Source: Lineus longissimus (lineage: Eukaryota; Nemertea; Pilidiophora; Heteronemertea; Lineidae). Taken from it: a DNA stretch of 64,000 bases. Below the pieces are notes generated by a model. It ran no database searches. It was not told the DNA's origin and was given only the letters and a program-made list of their open reading frames with translations. The stretch covers positions 14,818,001-14,882,000 of the forward strand of contig NC_088314.1 of the NCBI RefSeq assembly GCF_910592395.1. Direction: 5' to 3'. Shown piece after piece: positions 2,414-20,496 of this stretch; the first letter of the stretch is position 1; every line of letters begins with the position of its first letter. The position numbers and the translations under genes were made by a program.

Positions 2414-2598
2414 AAGGAGAGTCAGCCCAGGCATTTCAAAAATGAATCAAGGGACAGTCAAACCATGGGACGCCACAATGCCGAGACTACAGTAAGCCAG
2501 TCGGGAAACGAGTACAGGTCGGAGGTGAAGGGTGTCCCCCGATCATAAGCAAGATAGATGACCCCAACATTACTAACAAGACGAACAACAAGACTCCT

Positions 2599-2956
2599 AT
2601 GTGTTATAAACTTAGTGATGAAGGGAACGCGCTTTATGTGACAGGACGTTTAAGGAATTTAACCATTGATTGTCTCCTTGACAGCGGAGCGTCCATCACG
2701 GTACTCTCGGCAGATACATACTACAGGTTGGCGAATAATTTAAAGCCGGAATTGAGAAACTGCAGCACAGTTCTTACAGCAGCTGGCGGAAGAAAGATTG
2801 ATATTGTTGGTGAATGCACAATAGAGCTAGGAATATTTAACAAACCGACAATAATGGATGTTATTGTGGCGCACGTCAGTGTACCGGCAATTCTCGGGAT
2901 GGATTTTCTCAGAGCTACAGAATGCATATTAAACATGAGAAAGAACAGTTTATTAA
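2599..2956 (+). pseudogene. pol: Aspartic protease of gypsy element 1, interrupted
   Basis: This is the retropepsin-like protease at the start of pol. The catalytic motif is DSGA (in LLDSGASITVLS near 2670). A second conserved motif, ILGMDFL, lies near 2890. The ORF is interrupted exactly at a TTAA (2953-2956) by the 2.2-kb element at 2957-5132. It resumes in the same codon phase after the second TTAA copy (5133-5136), so the insertion did not delete or shift pol. The three bases after 2956 belong to the inserted element, and the apparent C-terminus there is an artefact. Confidence 0.85.
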
Positions 2957-3190
2957 AGGCCATATATCTAGGTTTGAAACATGCTTGATACTCATGAAAT
3001 ATGTTGAGGGTTAAAAAAACAAGATCCCAGACATTAAAAAAATTCTAATAATAAAGTCATTATTTAGTTATTTCAATTTTCAATTTTAAACTATTTGAAT
3101 TTCCCACCACACACAACTTTAGATTAGTTCCACATGTGGCCGCTAGGGATTTGTTGATATCATAGATCAGGCTATTCAGAACAAAGCAAG

Positions 3191-4281
3191 ATGGCTTCCG
3201 CATACAGTTCAGAGTGAGAGCAGTGAATTTGAGGATGTTTTGGTCGATACAGAAGGATATTTAAACGTTGAGGTATACACGTTCGAGCCATTAATATCAC
3301 TAGATCATAATGAGAGTGATCATTCGGACGAAAGTGATGAGGAAGTGGAGGATGAACGCCCTGAACGTGCAGGCAACAGAAAATGACAAGTTTTGTTTAC
3401 ATTCTCTATGCACACAGCACTACATGCATCCACTACTACTATACACAATTGGACTTTATCTGATGCTCTGGCACTTCTTGGATGGCTTTGTATTGGTTCA
3501 ATGGTTGTATGTATTTGAACAGTCTCTGAAGGACATTTGCCATCTGCCATGTCATGGACTCGGCCTCATCATCACTGAGACTGAGGGAAGCGAAGGAGGG
3601 CAACTGGCAACTGGTCTAGTGTTAATCATCATTTTTTGTAAATATGTAAACGTTTATCACTTCAGGTGTGACTGTGGAAACTGCACAGCTCAAATCACTG
3701 CCCTGGAACAGAGTCGACGTGCTGCAGTGACTATTCCCCAGTTCTGGCCAAGAAGGAAAGTTATGAGCCAGATGGAGTTGCCTGCATAACTCTGCATCCC
3801 GGATTCGCAAGCAACTGCCTTGACCGATATGTCCTGGAAAGTGCCATGTATGAATTTATCCAAGATCAAGGGCCAATAGGAAATGATCAGCCAATGCACA
3901 AGTAAGTTGAAATAAGTTCAAAGCACTTCTGCTTGCTGACTATTTATCTACACTTATATTTTACAGTATGAACTATATTTACAATATTATGTACATGTAC
4001 ACTTTCTATTTATTTACAAAACAGAAACAACTGCCTTCAGCACAAAGGATTCATGACCATACTACATTGTATGCATTATGTTTCATCTGAACTCAAATTT
4101 TCTCTCAAACTGTCTTTTCAGGTTATGGAGATACCTTGCATACCGCAGATTTGTGCGCTGGTGCTGGCAACGTTTGGGCAAAAAGCAAAGACTTCCTCTT
4201 CCAGTCTGTGCTCGTGACAAGATTCACATACATCGTTGGGGAAAACGTCCTGTACAAAAAGTCTGGCATGCGCCAGACTAA
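3191..4281 (+). pseudogene. P2X7-ballast-like zinc-binding domain gene, copy 1 (decayed, three exons)
   Basis: This encodes a domain like the cytoplasmic cysteine-rich 'ballast' of vertebrate P2X7 receptors, found alone in many invertebrate proteins; its molecular role is unknown. Exon 1 (about 3191-3385) is acidic, with a YTFEP motif. Exon 2 (3666-3901) follows a CAG acceptor and encodes CDCGNC, TCC and an ITLHPGF..NCL segment, ending at a GTAAGT donor. Exon 3 (4122-4281) follows TTTTCAG and encodes RYLAYRRFVRWCW and RLPLPVC. The exon junctions join in phase. One single-base shift near 3708 and another near 3215 break the frame, and the exon 1 donor looks degraded. There is no transmembrane channel region. 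It lies wholly inside the TTAA-flanked element, so it is transposon cargo here. Confidence 0.7.
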
Positions 4282-4289
4282 TAAGTAAA

Positions 4290-5132
4290 GAACTTCTGGC
4301 TGCGCGAGACTACTGTGATAAAAATGAGCATTGCAGAGACTCTGTGTGTACGGAGGCATATATTTTTTACAATTAAAAATGCTCTCAAAAGACTACATGG
4401 AATGATTATTTATTAACATTTCCTGAACTATAAATAATATAAATAGTATAAATTTGTCTGTATTACAAGGTATATCGAAGCTTTGAATTAGAAATACATT
4501 ACGATAGTTTGAGTATTGTATAAATTGATGTATTTGATGCAATTTTCTGTAAAAAGAATCGAATTTGAAAAATTAATTAAGTTCTATAAATTTGCCTAAA
4601 TTGTCTAGAAAACCTAATTTGACCATATTTGTGGGGTCTATGTTTTTTTTGGCATTGATTTGGTTTCCCCACTTCGCGAATTAGCTCAAAAAACACTTTC
4701 TAGATGTGAGATTTGACTTCTAAAATAAATATCACCGGTTTTCCCAAAAAATTAAAATATTTAATTAAAATATTTTTTGGAATACAATAAACTGATTTAT
4801 CATGGGCAAAATTATGCTTTCATACTTGAACATTGAAAATGTCAATGAAAAACAGACTTCATATATCAATTATAAGAGCATTAATTTATACGTGTCCTCC
4901 CAAGTAGGGCAATAGCCTGATCTACATCACAACTTTGGTGAACCCGCCGCCTGGCTCTAACAAGCCAGTTGCTAGCCTGATTAGGTGATCTAGTTGTCAA
5001 ACACCTGAAAGGCTATATCTTCAAAATGGATGGAGCAAATTGCATGGGGTTTTCTGTATTATATAAATTGTTAGGTGCACTTTTGAAATCGTCTTACAGC
5101 AGGAAATGGCAAAATACCTGGAGTTATGGCCT
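4290..5132. other. AT-rich 3' part of the P2X7-like element, no gene seen
   Basis: About 840 bases between the cargo gene and the right terminal inverted repeat are AT-rich with no convincing ORF. The last bases happen to be open in the frame of the downstream gypsy pol, which makes that ORF look as if it starts at 5106. The true gypsy sequence begins at 5137. Confidence 0.7.
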
Positions 5133-5136
5133 TTAA

Positions 5137-5717
5137 GCAATGGCCACGAAGTTCTGTATTACACCAGAGAGGAAAAACACTTCTGTCGTCGCATCCTGGT
5201 AGAGAAGACAGTAGCTTTTCTGTCCGGACAAGAAATGATTGTACCAGGGAGACCAGTATACAAGCACAATGCAGCTAGATGGAGTATGGTTGAACCCAGC
5301 AAGGTTTCACTGGCGAAGCGAGGTTTGGTAATGGGTCGCACCTTCATGGATACAGATAGTAAAGCGTGTCCACTCAGAATAATGAACGTTACCGATGACA
5401 CAGTGACACTTAACAAGGGAACAACCGCTGGTATCCTACATCCAGTGGAGCAGAGCATAGAAATTGGTCAAGAAAATCATGTTGCGGATGATAAAGATCA
5501 TACTGAAGAGAAACCGGTTGAGCCGACGGACCTACCGGAAAATTTACAAGATTTGTACAAAAGGAGTACAGAAGACTTGGAAGAAAATGAAATGCACAAA
5601 GTAAAGGATTTGCTACTGAAGTACCAGAGTGTTTTTGCTAAATCAAATGCTGACTTAGGGAGGACAGGGCTGATCAAGCATGAAATAGATACAGGTGACG
5701 CGAAGCCCGTTCGTCAG
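5137..5717 (+). pseudogene. pol: gypsy element 1 pol, protease-RT linker
   Basis: This continues pol from 2956 after the inserted element. It includes the linker typical of Ty3/gypsy (acidic, then VKDLLLKYQSVFAKS and a KHEIDTGDAKPVRQ stretch), which precedes the RT fingers. The frame is open to 5717, where a solo LTR interrupts it. Upstream bases 5106-5136 should not be counted, because they belong to the TTAA element. Confidence 0.85.
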
Positions 5718-5721
5718 TTAC

Positions 5722-6092
5722 TGTTGTAGAGCCCAGCTCTGATAAGAAGTGATCATAGGCCTTAATCATTATATCGCCAAGACCTGCATTTTGACTTGTG
5801 TAAGGTTTGATAATGTAGACTTTGAATATCGAATGATATTGTTTATCAGGTTGGCCTAGGCGATTTGCAATATTGCCATGTAAGTTAAAAGGGAGTATGG
5901 AGAGCGATAGCTAGGCGAACGGATCGGAATCCCGTCTTTGAGGCCTAGTGTACCGACTCAATTCCCGATTCGTCTATTAAAGTGACCTTGATATTGGAAG
6001 ATTGACGTCAAGAGTATATATTACTACTGATGTTCACCTCGGATCTTCTATCGTTCCGAGGGAGAACAAGGACCCGTTAGCGAACTATGACA
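5722..6092 (+). mobile_element. Solo LTR inserted in gypsy element 1
   Basis: The 371-bp segment begins TGTTG and ends TGACA and is flanked by direct TTAC copies at 5718-5721 and 6093-6096. Removing it plus one TTAC joins the two pol pieces in phase, giving the conserved Gln-Leu-Pro-Arg-Arg step before RT. No internal retroelement genes remain, so it is best read as a solo LTR left by LTR-LTR recombination. It shows no obvious similarity to either of the other LTRs in the window. Confidence 0.75.
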
Positions 6093-7601: not shown

Positions 7602-7750
7602 CTGGTCACATATATGTAGCAAATTTGCTAAATTGTAGTTTTTTAATTGTATTTTGGTAGTAAGCAAACTTGAGACGAATTTGGTCACAATATGTGTAAC
7701 CTGTTGAATTACTGTATATGTTGAGTGTGAATCTTACAGCTGCATGAAAG

Positions 7751-9036
7751 ATGTTGCCTGAAAACTTAACCAAGCTGACGGTTGCTGAGTTGCGGGTGCT
7801 GTGTGACGAACGAGGATTAATTTATTCTGGGTTGATTAAGTCACAGGTTATAGACATGCTGAAAGAGCATGAAGAACAAGAAGAGACTCGGGTAAAGGCA
7901 TTTATACAGAGTTTTCATGAGGCCAAGGTAATGGCCAGTCCTCAAGCCAAGTCCACGCCTACAAAGGGTGGCGGTGTCGCTTTATCTCCTGTAAAAGAGA
8001 ACAAGGTAAATGGTAGTATGGATGTAAGGCTGTATGAATTGGACCAGAGAAAATGGCTCATGCCATTCGCATGGCACAAATTGAGCGGGAAAAAGCAGAG
8101 CGCGACGCCGTGATTGAGCGTGAGAGACGAGAGCGTGACGTGGAGATTGAGCGTGAGAGACAGAGATTTGAACGCGAGCAGCAGGAGGCTGCCAGGGCGC
8201 TAGACAGGGAAAGGTTGGAATTAGAAAAAGAAAGGTTAAAAATGGAACTTGAAATCTCCAGAATGCGCGAGCAAGAAATAACACAGAGAGCGGCTAATCA
8301 TTCCCGGTCGGACATGGCTGGGAGGTATGGCAAGTATGGGCCAAAGATCCCAAAGCTGGCAGCTGGGGAGGACATCGAGGCCTACTTAGGTACGTTCGAA
8401 CGCCTCGCTACAGCAAATGAGTGGGACCGAGACTCATGGGCACCTAGGTTGGCGGCTGTAGTCACCGGTAAAGCCAGGGAAGCTTATGCGCTCATGCCAA
8501 CTGAGGACATCGGTGATTTTGATAAGGTGAAGCTCGCCATTCTAAAAAAGTACCAGCTTGGGTCTGAAGCGTACCGTGAAAACTTCAGAACCTCAAACAA
8601 GGAAGCCAAAGAGAGGTTTCAGGAATGGGGAACTAGAGTGTCCCGCTATTTTGATAGATGGTTAGAAATAAACGAAGTTAAAACCTTCGAAAAACTTAGA
8701 GAACATATGATCATGGAACAAATAACTAACATGTTGTCTCCAGATTTGCAGGTTTGGATGAAAGACAGAAAGCCTGAGACTGTAGAGAGGCTCACAGAGT
8801 GGGCAGAGTTGTATGTCAATTCAAGAAAGAAATCTCACATCGCTAAGTTCGCTGAGCCAGCCAAGGGGTCGGGTGGTAAGTCTTTCAAGAAAGTTAGAAA
8901 CGGCAATGCAGGTAAGCCCTCCAAAGACAATGTTACCTGTTTTTCTTGCAATCTAAAGGGGCACTATGCCGCAGAGTGTCCAGGCAGTGCGGGTAAGCCC
9001 TCCAAAGATAATGTTACCTGTTTTTTTGCAACTTAA
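7751..9036 (+). pseudogene. gag: Gmr1 gag with SAP, coiled-coil, SCAN-like capsid and zinc knuckles
   Basis: The polyprotein starts at ATG 7751. Residues about 5-40 look like a SAP motif (LTVAELRVLCDERGL..G..KSQVIDML). A long charged coiled coil rich in E and R follows (8053-8290). A capsid region with GEDIEAYLGTFERLA and a segment resembling the SCAN domain (MIMEQITNMLSPDLQVWM, about 8706-8765) comes next. Two tandemly duplicated CCHC knuckle units lie at about 8905-9060. The first is intact (CFSCNLKGHYAAEC); the second loses frame at a run of seven T. A one-base shift at an A run near 8050 separates the SAP part from the coiled coil. Derivation of the SCAN domain from Gmr1-like gag is established knowledge; the match here is by eye. 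Confidence 0.85.
9021..9027 (+). promoter_or_regulatory. Possible -1 ribosomal frameshift site (T TTT TTT)
   Basis: Seven consecutive T lie in the phase NNX XXY YYZ (codons TGT TTT TTT) of gag, with a stop codon nine bases later (9034-9036). A -1 slip here enters the frame that encodes the rest of the second knuckle and the protease. The alternative is a one-base deletion, since the paralogous first knuckle has a C in this position. Confidence 0.4.
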
Positions 9037-12000
9037 AGGGGCACTATGCTTCGGACTGCCCTGATAAGAAGGAGAATGCCAGCGGTAGTGGCGCTGGTGC
9101 TAACATGCAAGGAAGGAAACCTAAGAAAGGGTATCTTTGCCTGAGTCCATCAAGACCGGGGTTTGTCAATCACAAGCAGTTTGAACTTCGAGGGTATGTT
9201 GGTGAGATCCCTGTCTTGATGTTGCTGGATACAGGTTGCTCTAATACTCTAGTTAAATCCTGTTTGGTTTCAGACGACTTATATGATGGGAATAGCTTCG
9301 AAGTTCTGTCGGCCAATGGTACGACGGAAAAGGTCCTCACAGCCAAGGTGGTACTGTCTGGTACGCGGGGCAAGAAGGAGTGCATCGTAGGAGTGCTTGA
9401 GCGGTTACCTGTGGATGTCTTGTTGTCTCAGCAGGATTTCGTTGTCATTGGTAATTTAAATGAAGAACCGTTCTCACCTATGTCTCTAGTTTCAGATGCT
9501 CGCGACTTGGATGGTGTTCCAGCTTTTGCCGTGACCACCAGGGCCAGACAGAAAGAACAGGAAGCAGTAGCAGAATGGGAGAGTAGACAGCCACAAGCGA
9601 AGCCAAAGGCTGTTGGAGACTTGGTTCAGGGTAATGTAAAATCAGAGTCACTAGACTCAACTCCCGTTGCAGATTCGGCAGGAGATGTTGAAAGTCCTGA
9701 TGATATTTTGAGCGCCGAGTTCTTGAGTGATGTACAGATAGCGGAGGGGGAGAGTAATGTCCCTGTAGACTTGCCTCATTTAGATATGTGGAGATTGGGC
9801 CCCACAGAGTTAGCCAAGCGGCAAAAAGCTGACGTAAAACTTCAGAAAGTTTTGCAAAAATGTGAGAGGTCGTTGCCGAAGGACTCCATTGGATACTACT
9901 GGAGGGATGGTTTGGCATATCGACGCTCTTTTATGGAAGGCCGCCAACAATACTTTGACCAGTTGTTAGTTCCTCAGGAGTATCGGTTAGATTTGTTAGA
10001 CTTGGCTCATAGTATTCCATTGGCAGGTCATTTAGGTGTAACTAAAACCAAAGGTCGACTGGTTGAGCATTATTTCTGGCCTGGTCTACACAAGGACGTT
10101 GAGAAGTACTGCAGCACTTGTCCCAATTGCCAGAAATGTTCAAGAAAACTGGCCTCTGAAACGGCTCCCTTGGTAAGTGTTCCAGTTGTCGGGCGACCTT
10201 TTTACAAGGTAGCTATCGACATAGTTGGCCCGGTGGAACGCAGCTCAAAAGGCAACAAATACTTGTTGACTCTGGTGGATTATGGCACTAGATTTCCTGA
10301 TGCCATCCCTCTTAAGGACACGACGGCCGCTTGGTAGCGGATGGGTTAATAGAAATGTTTTCCAGATATGGCATACCCGACGAGTTACTCAGCGACCAGG
10401 GTTCCAACTTTGTGAGTGAACTGATGACTCAATTGCTTCCACGGCTTGGGATTAAGAAGATGAAGACCTCGTGTTACCATCCAATGGCAAATGGTTTGGT
10501 GGAACGTTTTCACTCCACTCTAAAAGGTATGTTACGGAAATTTGTTTCTGAAGAACCGAAAGAATGGGACAAGGTTCTTCCGTATCTCATGTTCGCATAC
10601 AGGGAGGTGCCGGAAGAGAGTACCGGGTTCAGTCCTTTCGAGTTGCTGTATGGTCGCGCAGTACGGGGGCCATTAGCGGTTCTAAAGGAAAGCTGGACTG
10701 AGGAGACCCCGCAAGATGAGAACATTGTAGAATATGTTCTGTCTGCGAGGAATCGCCTCGCGGCTATGACAGATTTGGTACATGAAAACGTGACAAAGAG
10801 TCAGAAAAAACAGAAGACCTACTATGATCGTAATGCACGGAAAAAAACTTATGAAGTTGGAGAAGAGGTGCTGGTCATGCTCCCTTCAGCTGCAAGTAAA
10901 TTGAAGTCAACATGGCAGGGACCCTATCCCATTGTGCGAAAGGTTTCTCCTGTTGATTTTGAGGTCGACACTGGGAAACGCAGGAAGAAATTTCGTATAT
11001 TCCATGTGAACCTGCTCAGGAAGTGGAAGGATAGAGACAAGGTTGCATTTTATGCACAGGCGTATATCTTTGGGGAGAGTGAAATTGACGTTGATAATTA
11101 TCTTCCAAAGCAAACGCCCACTCAGACTTGGAAAGACGTCCATATATCTGAAGGCTTGTCTGCTACAGAGAACAAGCAAATTAAGCAACTTGTGATTAAA
11201 TACTCTGCTATTTTTTCAGATGTCCCTTCGGCCACTAATGCCGCAGTCCATGATGTGAAGTTAGTGGAAGGTGCAAGGCCTGTGAGAACCGTTGTCCTGA
11301 ATCTCAGAAGGCTGGTCTGTGGCAACACATCAAAGAGTTGGCGCATGCCCAGATACTGGAGCAAGCAAAGCCTGGCCCTTGGGGTTCTGGTTTGGTGATA
11401 GTTCCCAAAAAGGATGGTAGCATCCGAATGTGTGTTGATTTTAGAGCCTTGAACCGGGTAACTGAGACCGATAGCGGCGGGAACTTACCCCGTATTGAAG
11501 AGTTGATTGAGAAGGTCAGTAGGGCAAAATTCGTTTCAGTAATCGATGTTTGCAAGGGCTATTATGCTATACCCTTGACGGATGCAGCAAAATTGGCTTC
11601 AACTTTTGTGAGTCCGTTTGGTTCATGGTCCTTTAGAGTAATGCCTTTCGCTATGAAAAATGCTCCCATGACCTTCACGAGAATGATGAATGAAGTCTTA
11701 GATGGTACTGAAGACTATGTTGTCGTGTACATTGATGATGTGGCAATATTTTCTGACTCGTTCCCGGATCACTTGAAACATCTTGAGGAGGTTTTCAAGC
11801 GCCTCAAAAAGGCGAATTTGAAAGCAAAGCCTAGCAAGGTGTTCCTTGGGCATGCTTCACAAGATTATTTAGGACATGTTGTTGGTTCAGGGAAGATTGA
11901 ACCGATAAAAGCCAAAGTTGAAGCAATTGCCCTGTTCAAGATCCCAGAGACCAAGAAGGAGATGAGACGATTTTTGGGCATGGCAGGGTACTACCGTAGA

Positions 12001-12531
12001 TTCATCCCTTGTTTTTCAGAGTTAGCAGCCCCCCTGACTGACCTGACAAAGAAAGAGAGGTCCAATAAGGTCCGGTGGTCAGAGGAGTGTGAAACTTCAT
12101 TTCAGAATCTAAAACAAGCTCTGCAGATGCACCCGGTGTTATCACCCCCAAACTACTCTAAACCATTTCTATTGCAGGTTGATGCAAGCGAGCGAGGGTT
12201 GGGCGCGGTGTTGGCACAAGTCGGAGACGATCAGTTGGAACATCCCATCGCCTACTTGAGCAGGAAGCTTCTGGACCGTGAGGCGCATCTTGCGACAATC
12301 GAGAAGGAATGCTTAGGAATAGTGTGGGCTGTAAGGTTGCTACGACCTTACTTACTCGGACATGAGACAATTCTGGAAACGGATCATAACCCCTTAGTTT
12401 GGTTAGACCGGGTCAAGGATTCGAACCAGAAGCTCCTTAGGTGGAGTTTAGCCCTACAAGAGTATGATTTGACCATAGTTCACAAGAAAGGTAAAGATAA
12501 TGTTGCACCGGATTGTTTATCTCGTGTGTGA
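9037..12531 (+). pseudogene. pol: Gmr1 pol: protease, integrase, reverse transcriptase, RNase H (frameshifted)
   Basis: The domains in order are: protease with LLDTGCSNTLV (about 9223); an integrase H2C2 zinc finger (H...H...CSTCPNCQKC, about 10010-10140); the integrase core with D in VAIDIVGPV (about 10213), D in LSDQGSNF (about 10393) and E in LVERFHSTL (about 10503); a GPY/F-like module (WQGPYPIVRKV, about 10915); RT with FVSVIDVCKGYY, and YIDD at about 11728; and RNase H with QVDASERGLGAVLAQ (about 12175) and the TDHNPLVWL block. Single-base shifts occur near 10330 and near 11305, both in the -1 sense. The catalytic residues are all present, so the source copy was active recently. No envelope ORF follows. 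Confidence 0.92.
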
Positions 12532-12679: not shown

Positions 12680-13566
12680 TGTGATGAATGGCATCACAGG
12701 CCTTTGTGTTAGGCCTGAGTTGTTGGCCTTATTAGTTTTATTTATTCATAATTTGTCTGGTTAGGCTGAATGTGTAACTGGTATTTCAGTCATATTATTA
12801 CATGTTAATTTAGACCTTTGGCTTGAGTGTGTTGAATAGGACTTTGGTAACTTCAGGACGTTGTGTGATTACTCATGGACATAGACTTATATAACTCTTG
12901 GGTTCATTAGTTGGAGCTGGACTGGGTGTGGGCAGTTCCTGGCTGGCCTCTGTAAGGAGAAGTTGTACATCGTACGTGCCGAACTCAATTCCGTTTGACC
13001 AACGTGGTCGTCATTCCTGGTGGAATGTGAACCGGCTGTGTGTCGGAGAGTCGTGGTGTTCTCATCTGTTATTTGCGTCCAGCCGCGGGTTGGAGCGCCT
13101 TGGCATTGCTGCCATCATGTCGGCGAACCGTGAGTTGGCTCTGCGGCCAAGGTGTCGCCAGACCGTTAATTTGTAAACCAGCTACGTGCTTGGTGGCTAC
13201 TGGAGTAGCCTTGGACCGACTGCGTGTCGGGACGGACACTTTTGTGTCGTGTGTTGTCGTGTGGTAACGGGAGAGGAGTTCGGAGAGACGTGTGTTACGT
13301 GTTGGGAGGCCGGTGGTAGGTGAAGGAGCCGTTGTTGGGAATTGACCGCGCCCAGGGAGTGGAGCCGGAGTGGAGGGAGCTTTGGACTTTGGTAATGTGT
13401 AAACAGACTTTTAGTTGTTGGAATTGAGCGGTGAAATGCTAATTTTATAAATATATTTTTCTTGTTCTGGTTAATTTTTAATACATGTAAATAATTATAC
13501 ATTCAGCCGTCTTTTTCTAATTTGTGACCAGGCCCGTGCAATAGCCTAAATCCCCGCTCCGTCACA
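12680..13566 (+). repeat. 3' LTR of Gmr1-like element
   Basis: It has the same TGTGA...TCACA ends as 6706-7582, with about ten substitutions and one 10-bp tandem duplication near 13250. It is followed by the AAAAT duplication and then directly by transposase codon 4. Confidence 0.95.
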
Positions 13567-13571
13567 AAAAT
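13567..13571. repeat. Target-site duplication, right (Gmr1)
   Basis: AAAAT matches 6701-6705. Confidence 0.95.
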
Positions 13572-16500
13572 ATTTTTAGCGATTCCGACGAAACAGATCA
13601 GCCACCTCGGCGTAAGAAGCAAGCCGGGAAACGTATAAGAAAACGCAAAAATCAAGGAAAACGATGTGCTGTGTATGGATGCGGAAATACAAATGAAAAA
13701 AGCACTGACGTTGGTATTCTAACTCCAAGAGTTGGGGTCTTCTCATTTCCAAATCCAACTAAAAACCCGGAGCTCAATGCGGCATGGGCCCGAGTTGTGA
13801 ACTCCACAAGAGCCGACTTCATGTACGGCGAAAACTCTTCGTTCGTGTGTTCCGATCATTTCGAAGACAACGTGACAAACCGCTTCAAAATAAACATGAT
13901 GAGAAAGATGCGACCGGAAAAGAAATTCAATTGGTCACGTACAGACGATGCGATCCCATCTATGTCCAGACTGCCAGCCCGACCAACTCATGGAACGCCT
14001 GCGACTTCCACGTTTTCTCTCCAGTCTCCTGCCGGCGCCACTCCTTCTCCCGGTACAAGTACAGCTACCCAGCATGATTTTACTACGCCGAAACCTGAGC
14101 GAAGCCTCATAGTAAAGAAACGAAGGCAAACAGTAATTTTCTTCCTTTTTTTTGCCGATGTCACCACGTCCATTCAACACCACGCACATCTCCCGTTGCC
14201 ATGGTAATACATGTTATGTCGAGTGAATGTACGCTGTAGGCCTATAGCTGCAGCTCGGACCAGTGTGAGCTGAGCGACTGAAACCAGTTGGGTGTCTATC
14301 ACTTACTGACTTGGAGCCCCACTTCGAATGGTGCATCAGAATTCATGGTCCTCAGCATTTTACACTTGAAGAGAACCCTTTCTATTATGATGTGATGAAT
14401 TACTCTGATGATGCAGTGTCTGGTCATTACTTATGTAATATGCAAGGTACATAGAAGCCCCATCTATTCCATGGTCTAGCTTGATCTCCAGTGATTCAGT
14501 GTCATCTTCACCAACTGTATTGCGGCCAGAGGTATCTTTAAGTATGTTATTGTGTTGCAATATAACACTACCACCATTTTATTTGGTTTTCCAGTTACTA
14601 AAAGAAGCTTCAGAAGAATTTGCTGCCATGGCAGACCCTGAACCTGAGCCTGAGCCTGACATGCCAATGAGCGACTGCACTGATCAGGAGATCATTGAGG
14701 TGAGGTACCAGACCTAACAGACCCCATGCCTATGGGCCTGTCTATGCAACAGTTCTAAATGTACAGGGGAAACATTATTTCGTTGTTCATATTGCTTGTA
14801 TATAATTTGCTATAGGGCCTACTTGAGATGCTTCACACAGGTCGTTAGAGAAGCCAAATCTGTCACAGGTCCTTGTTGGGGGGGGGGGGGGGGGGTCTGT
14901 GAGATGACTCAATTCTGATAATTGTTATCTTTTTGCAGCTTTGTAACAGCATTGATCAGTACTGCCAAGTACGCCTTCGCCCTAACCACCGTTTACGTGC
15001 TGTTCAAGTTACACAGGCGAAAGTAAAAAAAGTATCAAAAAGTAAGTGCATTTTTTTGGTTAAAATTAGATGTACTGGTGTACAATTCAGTAAGGCAAGT
15101 GGGCCTGCTTTTTGCTGGTGGCGCCCTTTGATATTACATTTTCCAAAAAGCATGTATAAGTTCACACCCCAAGGTCATTGTTTAAAACTTTGTACTTGTA
15201 CCACACACACGCATTACTTCTATTCATACAATCATGTACATGTATTTTCAGAGGTGCAAACAGATCAACATCTCAACGATGAAGCTTGAGAAGGTTGCTG
15301 GCTTTGTTTCATCTGTTCGAAACCGATTGCTGTCATCCATTGGTAAGTTGTACAATTAGTCGGGTTAGCAGAATTATAAGGAGTGTTTACTTAAAATTGT
15401 AATTCAGTATAATTACATTGACAAATCCAATGCAATGCAGCATCGGTACACTATAACACTATAACATTTGTAGACATATACATGTATTTGAGTAAATATT
15501 TATATCACAACATACATCTACATACAGACATCTCACTCCCTTTCAAGGAACTCAAACAGATGTGGGAATTGGCCAGCGGTCATCTTGCATCTGCAAGTGC
15601 AATTGCTCTTCTGATCAGCCTGTTGATCTCATCCCAGATGCATCAGATGAGGAAATGTCAGAATCTGATGCATCCCTTGATTATGAGGAAGATCTGCTGG
15701 ATAGAAGCTGGGTGCCAGATATTGATGTCAGCTGCAGCAGTGATGAAGAAAGTGATGAAGAGGACTGGAAACTTGATGATGATCAGAATGAATAAGTTTT
15801 TTACTACTGAGATAACAATGTCCATGAGATGAACACCAGTGAACATGAATTCCGAGTATTAAAGTTAATCTACAAGTTACAATGCATTGGTTACAATGAT
15901 GAACATGTACAAAAAAAAAGTAAGATTTTTTTCATTTTTGGCTAAAAAGTATTCCATATCTATTTACAGAGATGACCCTTCCAAGGCAAAGAAATACCTG
16001 GTGTTTCATTCGAACTTGATGGACCTCTTCAAAATTTGCCCACTTCGTTCCTCGCCAGCTGAGAGACAGCTAAGGAGGATTGGGACATATCTGTCCATTA
16101 AACAAAGGTGTTCCAACAAGGAGTGTACATTTGAAAGGTAAAATATCCATGAAAAGCTACAGACCGTCAATCTGCAAGGGTTATTACATGGCATATTCCA
16201 AGCGTTGAGGACATGACAACTTATTGCGAACACCGCAAGTGCAATCAGCGAAAGGCAGCGTGATTTTTAATTTTATAATTTCTAATTGTAGCCTACATGT
16301 ATCTGCAGCTATAAAATGCATGATTGACAAGTACATGTCACAATTTGTATTCATGTTGAGATTGCTGCACCTTTTTCATTGGGTAACATGTACATTTAAC
16401 AACAAAAATGTTTCCAAAGTTTTTAAAAACAATTATATACTTAGTAGTAAACGTATTTTTTTCAGATTTTGGGAGAGTCAGCCATTCTTGAAGAATGTGC

Positions 16501-18906
16501 CTGCTGGCAACATTCTCCTTTCAAGTGCAATCCTTTTTGCGGGATCAACTGCCGCCAAAATCCTGAAGGTCTTCAGATTTCTTGGCTGTCAAGCGTTTCA
16601 TGCGAACACATTCTATCCGCACCAGAGGCGTTACTAATGGCCAGCTGTAGAGTCTGCATGGAGGGAGAACCAGCAAGAAGTCATAGAACATGTGAAAACA
16701 ACTGGACAGCCTGTAGTTGTTGGAGGAGATGGCAGGTCAGACAGCCCAGGGCACTGTGCCAAGTTTGGGTCCTACTCCCTTTTGGAACTGAACGTCAACA
16801 AGATCCTAGACGTACAGCTAGTTCAGGTTTGTCTAATATATCACACAGTTTATATTTTTGAACCAGTACAAAATGGAGAAGCTTGTAAAATATTGTCTGC
16901 TGCATGTTCAACCAAAATGTACACTATGGGTTCTGATCTTTTCATTTTTTCGCTGCGAATGAATATTTCATGGTATCTACAATTATACATGTATGTATAC
17001 TAGTATCATGGTAATATTGTAGTTGTAATTCTCGATTTTTCAGTCTAATGAGGAAAACGTCAATAACAGTGTAAACTGCGAAAAAGAGGGACTAATTCGG
17101 TGCGTGGCCTTTTTGCAATCAATCGATGTGACCATTGCAAAGATAGTGACAGACCGCCACGTCCAGATAAACAAATGGCTAAGGGAGAATCTGCCGGAAG
17201 CAGATCATTGCTTTGATGTCTGGCATCTCGCTAAGGGTAAGTGTTTCTTCTACATGTGCGTAACATTGTAAAAATGCACCATTTGTGTCGTCAAGGAGTA
17301 TAATTTACACAACAGGCATTGAATGAATTTAAAACCAATAGTAATAAACTTGTCTCTTCAAAAGGGAGGAAACGAAGAATACAGATATATTTTACATTAC
17401 ATAATGTAAATGTGACATTCATTCAGTTTTCCTGTCAGCCAAATTTTTGCAACAATTTTTATGATACATTATTTTATCAAGGTCTCAAGAAAAAGATCCT
17501 CAAGGCGGCCAAGGAAAAGGATTGTGAAGTTCTTGCCCTCTGGTGCAAGTAGATAGTGCATCATCTGTACTACTGTGCAGCATCAACCCCGGATGGAGAC
17601 AAGGATGTCATTCTTGTAAAATGGTTGTCTCTTGAGAACCACCTCCACAAAAAGCACAGAGGACATAGCAAGTTATATCTAAAGTGTGGGCATGGCAGGT
17701 TGAAGAAGAGAGACAAGAAAAAGAAATGGCCTGTACCAGGTAGGGCATGTATCCAATTATTTTCAAATACAGCAAAATAAATTACACATAAAACCCAATA
17801 TGCATACATGTACTCGTGACAAATTACTTTGTTGGGTCATCTTATGAGCTAAATGTACATGTATGTATTTCACACACTTGAATGTAATCACACTAAAGTA
17901 AAACATGGTACATACATTGTACATTATTGTAGTACTAATAACATGAAAAATGTTATATTGTTTCAGGATCAAAGGCATCAGTGAAGGTCTCCAACCTGAT
18001 TGACAATCAGTACTTCAAGCCAGCTGTGAAAAAGATGTCAACTGGAGAGCAAACATCAAGCTTGGAAGCTTATCATAGCCTCCTCCTACATTTCGCTCCG
18101 AAAATGATCGCGTTCAGCTACAAGGCAATGCGTGCCAGGTAGTAATTTTATAATGAATAATATTTCAGAGTTCAACATGGATGTATTCCTAGATTATCAT
18201 TGCTGGTAGTGTAATCACAGAAAGTACATATTTTTGACACATTAATGTATTACATGCACATTACATGCAGATGACAGTTACCATGGAGATGTGTGACAAA
18301 TCCAGTATGTCGATGTTCATTTTTCAGACTCCTCCTGGCAGCTCTCCACTACAATGAAAATGGTGACAAGGAACAGGCAAAAACAGAGGATGGTCAGCTG
18401 AGATGGTCCATTCCATTCATAAAGTCAAAAAAGGGGATATTCAATCCGTCCAATCAAGACTGACACTACATATGGTAGGAATTGAAACAATACATGAACT
18501 TAAAATATAGCTGGTGCATTGTAAGTCTGAATTATGGTTTCCCTGTCTATACGAAAGAAGAATAGATACAGTTACCTTCTAAATACATTTATTATTTCAA
18601 TCCCTTTCCATTGTGATGTAGCAAACATGTATTACAATCAAACTGAAATTCCATTTTCAGTTTATGCAGCCTCGTTGATGACGGAAGTCTGCCGAAGGTG
18701 CACTGAGAATATCCTACCAGAAGAAGAAGAGATGAGCCTTCCTATGCCACTGGCCAGTGCATATGAGCACCCTGATGAGGCTGCAGCTGTTAAAAGCTAC
18801 AACGAACAGCACAAGCGCTACGCAACTGTAACTGCAACACAGTTCAAGAAAGCAGCTAAGCCAAAATCCACAAGGAAGAAATAAGATTGCACTGTAAATC
18901 AATTGT

Positions 18907-20496
18907 CTATTCTCCAATCGCAGGATATTTAAAACTGACATTGTCACCAACGGCCCAAAATTTCAAACGAATCTTTTCAAGCACACATGCGGGCAAAGGC
19001 ACACGATTCTTCTTTCCAAGGATGCCCCAACACCATCTCACGAATTGTCGATATGCGATGTAACGATATTTCCTGGAAATAGGAATTGTATTGTTCATGT
19101 AATACAATGACATCAGTGAAAAACCTATTAAATCGTATCTGATGAACCATAGTTTTCAAGCAACACAGGGTTCTTAATGTTGAAATGAATCTGAATCTGA
19201 AAGTTTTTAAGAATAAACCCCATTGCATAATAACAATGACAATGTACATGCACCAGGTAGTGTTTAGTTTTTAACACATCAATATTCAAAATGCTTTTTG
19301 ACAGTAACATACAAGCTGTGGTTGATATTCATACACTGCATTGTTATTTACCTGGGCTTTTGGCATTTCTGTTAGGATAAAATGGTTGTACATGTAAATA
19401 AAAATGACAGATATAAAGTACTACATTCTCATTTGTTTCGCCTTCTACTCTGGTCCGATACTGCTGCCTATAGTGAGAGTAGGCAGTTCGCAAAACCCAG
19501 ACATCCAAGCAATTCGACTGGAATCCAGGATGTTTCGGTGATGCAGGTTATGTTTCCAACATGGTCCCTGTTAAACTCCTCGATAGTGTCTTGCACTGGA
19601 CCCTTTTCTGTGCAGCAAGCATTTTCCTCGGGTGTGTCCTGCACCTCGCACCTGCCTCCACATTTACACCTGGAAGAGAAACAGGCAATTTATAACACTA
19701 ACAGACCTGTTTTTGTGCGACACGATATCCATACATGTAGGGTTGTACTGGGAGGCCTACACTAGCTGCCGATCAACTAAGTTTGGGAAAATATTCATAC
19801 AACAATGTTCCATGAGCATGCATGGTCCACATGGTCCAGTCCAGGGCCTGGAGTGACCGACTGAAACAACCAGTGCAGAATGATTGACTCATAATTGAGT
19901 ACAACGAAAAAACCGATTCATCCATAATTATCCATTAAAAAAAGACGGGAAATCAATCATGTTTGCGTCCCAACCGACATTTAGGACCCATTTTTACAAA
20001 GGCCCTAGATTAGTTCTTAGAAAGAAAAACATAGATCGTCAATCTACGTCCGGAAAACGATTTTCGGACAAAAAAGTAAACAACCAACTGGTAAACTTCG
20101 AAAATCTACTTCAAGTAGTCAAGAATACCAACTGAAAACTAGGCAGACACCGAAAGACGTTTGAATTGTCAACGGCAGCAATCACTGGGCACTTTTAAAG
20201 ACCAGAGATAGTCAGAAAATTCAGCAAATCTCCAACATAGCTTACCACTTGTCCGAATCCTCCATTCGCAAACGCCAAAATTCTTCCTGATCATAATCGG
20301 AGACCTCCCCATCATCACTCCCGGATTCCTCGCCTGAATCTTCTTCGACCGGCTCAAATTGATATCCAAGGATGACCCCATGAATTCCTGCACCTTCCTC
20401 ATTATCAGATGAAGCAAATGACGAAGCATCCGAACTATAATTGCTAATTGAATCTACGATGTCGCTGGAAGATTCGCTTGGAAATAACTTGCTCAC
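18907..20496 (-). pseudogene. P2X7-ballast-like zinc-binding domain gene, copy 2 (three exons)
   Basis: Exon 1 (20496-20246) starts MSKLFPSESS and is acidic and serine-rich with a GYQFEP motif; it ends at GTAAGC. Exon 2 (19669 to about 19414) begins after CAG with CKCGGRC, has ACC, then CIT, and after a one-base shift near 19535 NCLDVWVLRTAYSHYRQQY. Exon 3 (19072-18907) encodes KYRYIAYRQFVRWCWG, VPLPACVLEKIR and stops at 18907. The CxCGxxC...CC...HPGF...C...AYRQF...LPxC order is that of the P2X7 ballast domain; no channel segments are present. It converges on the Kolobok-like transposase with 22 bp between stop codons. The first ten codons lie inside a block shared with the second U2 unit. 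Either it is element cargo, like copy 1, or a neighbouring host gene. Confidence 0.72.

Follow-up and report, generated by a model that had tools for sequence, protein, structure and literature searches.

The locus treated here raises the question of what kind of element carries a P2X7-like gene in a nemertean genome, and whether the gene travels in it as cargo or belongs to it. The stretch analysed (the window) comprises 64,000 nucleotides of Lineus longissimus contig NC_088314.1. The initial annotation described its positions 2957-5132 as a transposon flanked by TTAA, the sole gene of which encodes the cysteine-rich 'ballast' domain known from the cytoplasmic tail of vertebrate P2X7. The analysis indicates that this segment is very probably a decayed and non-autonomous copy from a Kolobok family of the Kol0 type. 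Kol0 Koloboks encode a transposase and the protein KolX, to which the ballast gene corresponds (Kojima and Bao, Mobile DNA 2022; PMC9587614). The segment belongs to a transposon group that was already known, and the general claim that links the ballast domain to transposons has already been published.

The inverted ends and the TTAA on both sides were confirmed. The terminal inverted repeats (left: AGGCCATATATCTAGGT) are imperfect and 17 nt long with 14 of 17 positions matching, or 86% over 21 nt when the TTAA is included. The AGGCCATA/TATGGCCT ends, also written AGGYCATATATC, lie within this repeat. The termini read AG...CT, in line with the 5'-RR...YY-3' rule for Kolobok, and the 4-bp TTAA target-site duplication is that of the Kolobok superfamily. 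The segment interrupts the open reading frame (ORF) of a long terminal repeat (LTR) retroelement, and this frame stays open once the segment and one TTAA are removed in silico, as had been stated initially. Three related genome copies match the right flank with 77-78% identity. In short pieces of two retroelement relatives (L043 and L044, about 80% identical), the left and right flank are continuous with no insertion at the site: the 9 bp between the two flank alignments are exactly the unaligned ends of both queries. As these relatives carry an uninterrupted site, the transposon insertion is real. In the genome searched (391 Mb, 30 contigs), a left-end pattern with two ambiguous letters occurs 321 times, compared to 0 occurrences for the reversed control.

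The assignment of the gene to the ballast family depends on its sequence profile and predicted fold. When the exons of the window copy are read through, with X standing for the splice-junction codon and for the frame break, the product scores 25.7 bits against the Pfam family P2RX7_C (PF20478, cut-off 23.5). The exons searched one by one, however, all remain under the cut-off. An intact relative reaches 50.0 bits. A fold search with the predicted KolX structure led to P2X7. A first structure model, built from three sequences, was poor (predicted local distance difference test score of 50.8); its top seven matches were P2X7, every one above E 0.001. A sequence search of the PDB with the window read-through gave no match at 0.001. 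KolX is thus like the C-terminal ballast of P2X7 (PDB 6u9v, 8tr5 and 9e3m) in sequence profile and predicted fold, but it is a stand-alone protein of 194 amino acids with an acidic N-terminus and no channel part. Several of its cysteines are nearly invariant across 41 homologues, and KolX would most likely fold around zinc in the manner of the P2X7 ballast. According to passages of Rump et al. 2020 (PMC7016195), stand-alone domains conserve mainly R546 among the guanine-nucleotide residues of rat P2X7, so that a nucleotide role of KolX is uncertain.

The same protein is already present in annotations. The gene spliced from copy L005 (contig C15) is identical to NCBI LOC135499789 of L. longissimus at 194 of 194 residues. 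By name, 29 of 76 KolX homologues are of the 'P2X purinoceptor 7-like' kind; only proteins of comparable length were searched, which keeps true P2X7 receptors out of the result. A nanor-named protein (P0037) is among these homologues, and the nanor and other stand-alone ballast proteins likewise consist of the domain by itself. In viral contigs there were three pattern matches to the ballast domain, none of which was confirmed.

Further copies of the element had been anticipated and are indeed numerous. A genome search with 2957-5132 scored 40 of 1743 candidate places and listed 48 matches. Among the latter, the full span (1-2176) is covered by the window copy alone, while 12 others span 1-1269 or 5-1269 (90-92% identity) and 27 hit the right-terminal part (92-98%). 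Twenty left ends were chosen from contigs C1 and C2. A right end by a strict pattern lies 1355-1403 bp downstream at 15 of them, and 19 retain a KolX exon-1 piece together with a THAP piece. These chosen elements are short derivatives with an internal deletion. One family member (L023, G000:C1:12337500-12345500) contains an internal direct-repeat array with steps of about 300 bp, in which neither KolX nor transposase pieces were detected.

KolX itself was located through exon 2 (150 of 636 candidates scored), and the listed matches comprise 40 places: 16 of a 97-99% identity type, 19 of a 61-64% type and five others, including the window copy. All 16 copies of the 97-99% type combine a GC-AG intron 1 with GT-AG and are free of exon gaps; 13 are stop-free, and L004, L008 and L053 have one stop each. 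The uniform GT-AG borders assumed initially consequently do not apply to intron 1, which in the window copy has an AC donor. Compared to the intact reference copy L003, the window gene is damaged at four points: a deletion in exon 1, the intron-1 donor, an insertion in exon 2 and the replacement in exon 3. The gene is a ballast-domain gene, but that the window copy itself encodes the domain was not confirmed.

At a number of related places, KolX is accompanied by a transposase. In L039 and L040 the transposase gene lies on the opposite strand and runs toward KolX. The D2 piece of the L040 transposase has 98 genome-wide matches and is found within 5 kb of 14 of the 40 listed KolX places, always in convergent (tail-to-tail) order (14/14). 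Split by type, these are 11 of 19 places (61-64%), three of the five others and none of the 16 (97-99%). Those copies of the 97-99% type that were retrieved retain the transposase C-terminus, and some also the E region and THAP (L041, Pfam 3.6e-13), but the retrieved stretches yielded neither a D1 nor a D2 piece. In 2957-5132, a translated search with the transposase pieces detected none, and only for this reason is 'sole gene' true of the window copy.

A second, decayed two-gene Kolobok, absent from the initial annotation, lies at 13545-20480, 8-15 kb from the first. Its transposase pieces are at 15977 (pre-core), 16725 (D1), 17080 (D2), 17966 (E) and 18317 (E2) and are interrupted by stops, e.g. 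between ORFs 16209-16637 and 16638-17003. Its KolX is arranged tail-to-tail with the transposase and has a broken frame in exon 2. No convincing terminal repeats were found for this second element. Relatives and the second window element thus pair KolX with a transposase, as in Kol0, while 2957-5132 itself contains KolX only. The L040 core shows D-C-W-H after the second D (compare the C/DxxH motif of the DDD/E transposases of Kolobok), and the MULE matches of the relatives are weak. The adjoining DDE-type core is a candidate Kolobok transposase and a putative partner of the ends of the window element, and confidence in the Kolobok assignment is slightly lower on this account.

Could the ballast gene instead be selected cargo, acquired independently by a one-gene transposon family? 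This is improbable. Such a family would explain that the 16-copy type keeps KolX where the transposase core is undetected, and that 13 of its 16 copies are free of stops and exon gaps with all four splice-site dinucleotides present. However, THAP and C-terminal transposase remnants persist in the fetched copies, and the substitutions look neutral. The 16 copies show 29 distinct exon changes, 8 silent and 21 non-silent (3 of them stops); under neutrality a non-silent share of 77-80% is expected, from which 21/29 does not depart (p=0.39). Per base, exons (29/585) and introns (23/462) have changed to the same extent. Because the exon changes look neutral, KolX in the transposase-less 97-99% type is probably a passenger that drifts neutrally, although with a sample of 29 changes weak selection is possible. 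Selection on KolX in this type was accordingly rejected as unsupported. Between families, the ratio of non-synonymous to synonymous divergence (dN/dS) is 0.09 for L003 and L039, but dS is saturated at 1.75, so that strong constraint is only suggestive; the two comparisons that involve L040 gave no dS estimate. The description of the ballast domain as transposon cargo is correct in that a TTAA transposon carries it, but KolX is a standard component of the two-gene Kol0 Kolobok.

Marginally less probable still is a piggyBac-type transposon that captured a ballast gene. piggyBac also targets TTAA, passages of Kojima and Bao (PMC9587614) mention that a KolX-like protein occurs in a few piggyBac families, and KolX of L040 adjoins a piggyBac transposase (ORFs L040:3-1142, directly upstream). 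On the other hand, the ends of the window element start with AG (5'-RR), which by the rule given in the same paper separates Kolobok from piggyBac, and it is the DDE-type core that lies convergent to KolX at 14 of the 40 listed places. Of 128 piggyBac matches, only the query's own place (L040) lies within 5 kb of a listed KolX place, and just two further pairs are found within 10 kb. A Pfam DDE_Tnp_1_7 transposase tied to the element was hence seen at one of 40 places, and a chimera of piggyBac and KolX was dropped as a candidate. A host ballast gene flanked by TTAA through chance can be dismissed almost entirely: annotations of many animals do include stand-alone ballast genes, but the 321 exact left ends against none in the control, the many dispersed copies and the uninterrupted target site in the retroelement relatives refute it.

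For the Kol0-type Kolobok, the following course can be proposed. Judging from the relatives, the complete form contains two convergent genes, KolX and a DDE-type transposase, with THAP where the N-terminus is seen. In the window copy the transposase part has been lost together with the KolX 3' end; internal deletion or recombination is the presumed cause. It was most likely mobilised in trans by the transposase of another copy, which would have moved it by cut-and-paste to a TTAA in the LTR retroelement. KolX most likely acts as an accessory protein of Kolobok transposition, with a putative zinc site and a putative role in the transposition reaction. In transposase-less derivatives it would become a decaying passenger.

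The window element has TTAA and RR/YY ends in common with the Kol0 group (Kolobok-1_XT type), and the Lineus relatives and the second window element also share its DDE-type transposase and ballast KolX. The window copy differs by its missing transposase and broken KolX. THAP domains occur in other Koloboks. THAP, the convergent order and the GC-AG intron 1 are features of the Lineus elements that do not appear in passages of Kojima and Bao (PMC9587614), and the word 'THAP' is absent from the main text of that paper. Its passages also list L. longissimus as a host of KolobokP, which belongs to the same superfamily but is marked by a His-Me nuclease and long terminal direct repeats. The paper assigns KolX to the Kolobok0 lineage.

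The initial annotation knew of no earlier report. Its central inference was already in print, since passages of Kojima and Bao (PMC9587614) ascribe the ballast fold to KolX, which matches residues 476-595 of human P2X7, and derive P2X7 from a P2X4-like gene fused with a Kolobok KolX gene. The link between ballast proteins and Kolobok is presented there as previously unremarked. Passages of Rump et al. 2020 (PMC7016195) proposed ballast capture without transposons, and neither 'transpos' nor 'mobile' occurs in the main text. A literature search found no paper that joins P2X purinoceptor 7, transposase and domestication. Within the literature searched, three points seem to be new: the nemertean KolX family, the combination of convergent gene order and a GC-AG intron, and the finding that KolX apparently drifts neutrally in copies lacking a transposase core.

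Table 1. Features of the two Kolobok elements and the host retroelement, in window coordinates.
Feature	Position	Strand	Basis or remark
Left part of the host LTR-retroelement ORF (gag-type aspartyl protease)	2446..2956, resumes 5137-5729	+	Pfam PF13975, E 2.1e-7; related uninterrupted copies
Left TTAA target-site copy	2953..2956		sequence
Left terminal inverted repeat	2957..2973	+	starts 5'-AG, agreeing with Kolobok 5'-RR
KolX exon 1 (acidic N-terminus)	3191..3385	+	2-bp deletion after ~3210 compared to L003; next intron donor AC, not GC
KolX exon 2 (zinc-cysteine part)	3666..3901	+	frame broken by 5-bp insertion at ~3698-3702
KolX exon 3, first 104 nt	4122..4225	+	identical to L003; remainder replaced after 4225
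Segment with matches at other loci	4226..4432		93% to one listed place, L015; ~150 bp at 84-85% to L026 and L035
Right-terminal ~700 bp	4435..5132		27 of 48 listed matches (92-98%) cover it entirely or for the most part; no transposase piece detected
Right terminal inverted repeat	5116..5132	-	inverted-repeat comparison of the ends
Right TTAA target-site copy	5133..5136		sequence
Second Kolobok, THAP-domain ORF	13545..14204	+	Pfam THAP 9.3e-12; putative transposase N-terminus
Second Kolobok, transposase pieces and C-terminal ORF	15977..18884	+	tblastn; Pfam MULE 1.5e-4, below cut-off
Second Kolobok, KolX, three exons	18907..20480	-	ends approximate; tblastn; P2RX7_C 2e-10 for read-through with X

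Two neighbouring features may be added. The window contains a second LTR retroelement (7748-12531), the gag-like ORF of which includes a SCAN-like domain (PF02023, 2.5e-13), and the ORF before it has a weak SAP match below the cut-off. Elsewhere in the genome, immediately left of a Kolobok copy, lies an ORF (L013:2-1087) which we take to resemble a Pif1/Helitron-type helicase.

The suggestion that invertebrate ballast expansions trace back to mobile elements fits the expansions of stand-alone genes. Transposase-less Koloboks with a whole KolX may represent a half-way stage that multiplies KolX as a mobile single gene; it is an unlikely but conceivable scenario that such copies, not complete Koloboks, were the source of the stand-alone 'P2X7-like' and nanor genes as well as of the exon that P2X7 captured. 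The transposase-less KolX type exemplifies copies that seemingly drift neutrally after separation from their transposase. Kolobok KolX also suggests why annotations hold many short, channel-less 'P2X purinoceptor 7-like' genes. Overall, the Lineus elements provide nemertean support for the published view that the ballast domain of P2X7 is a transposon protein.
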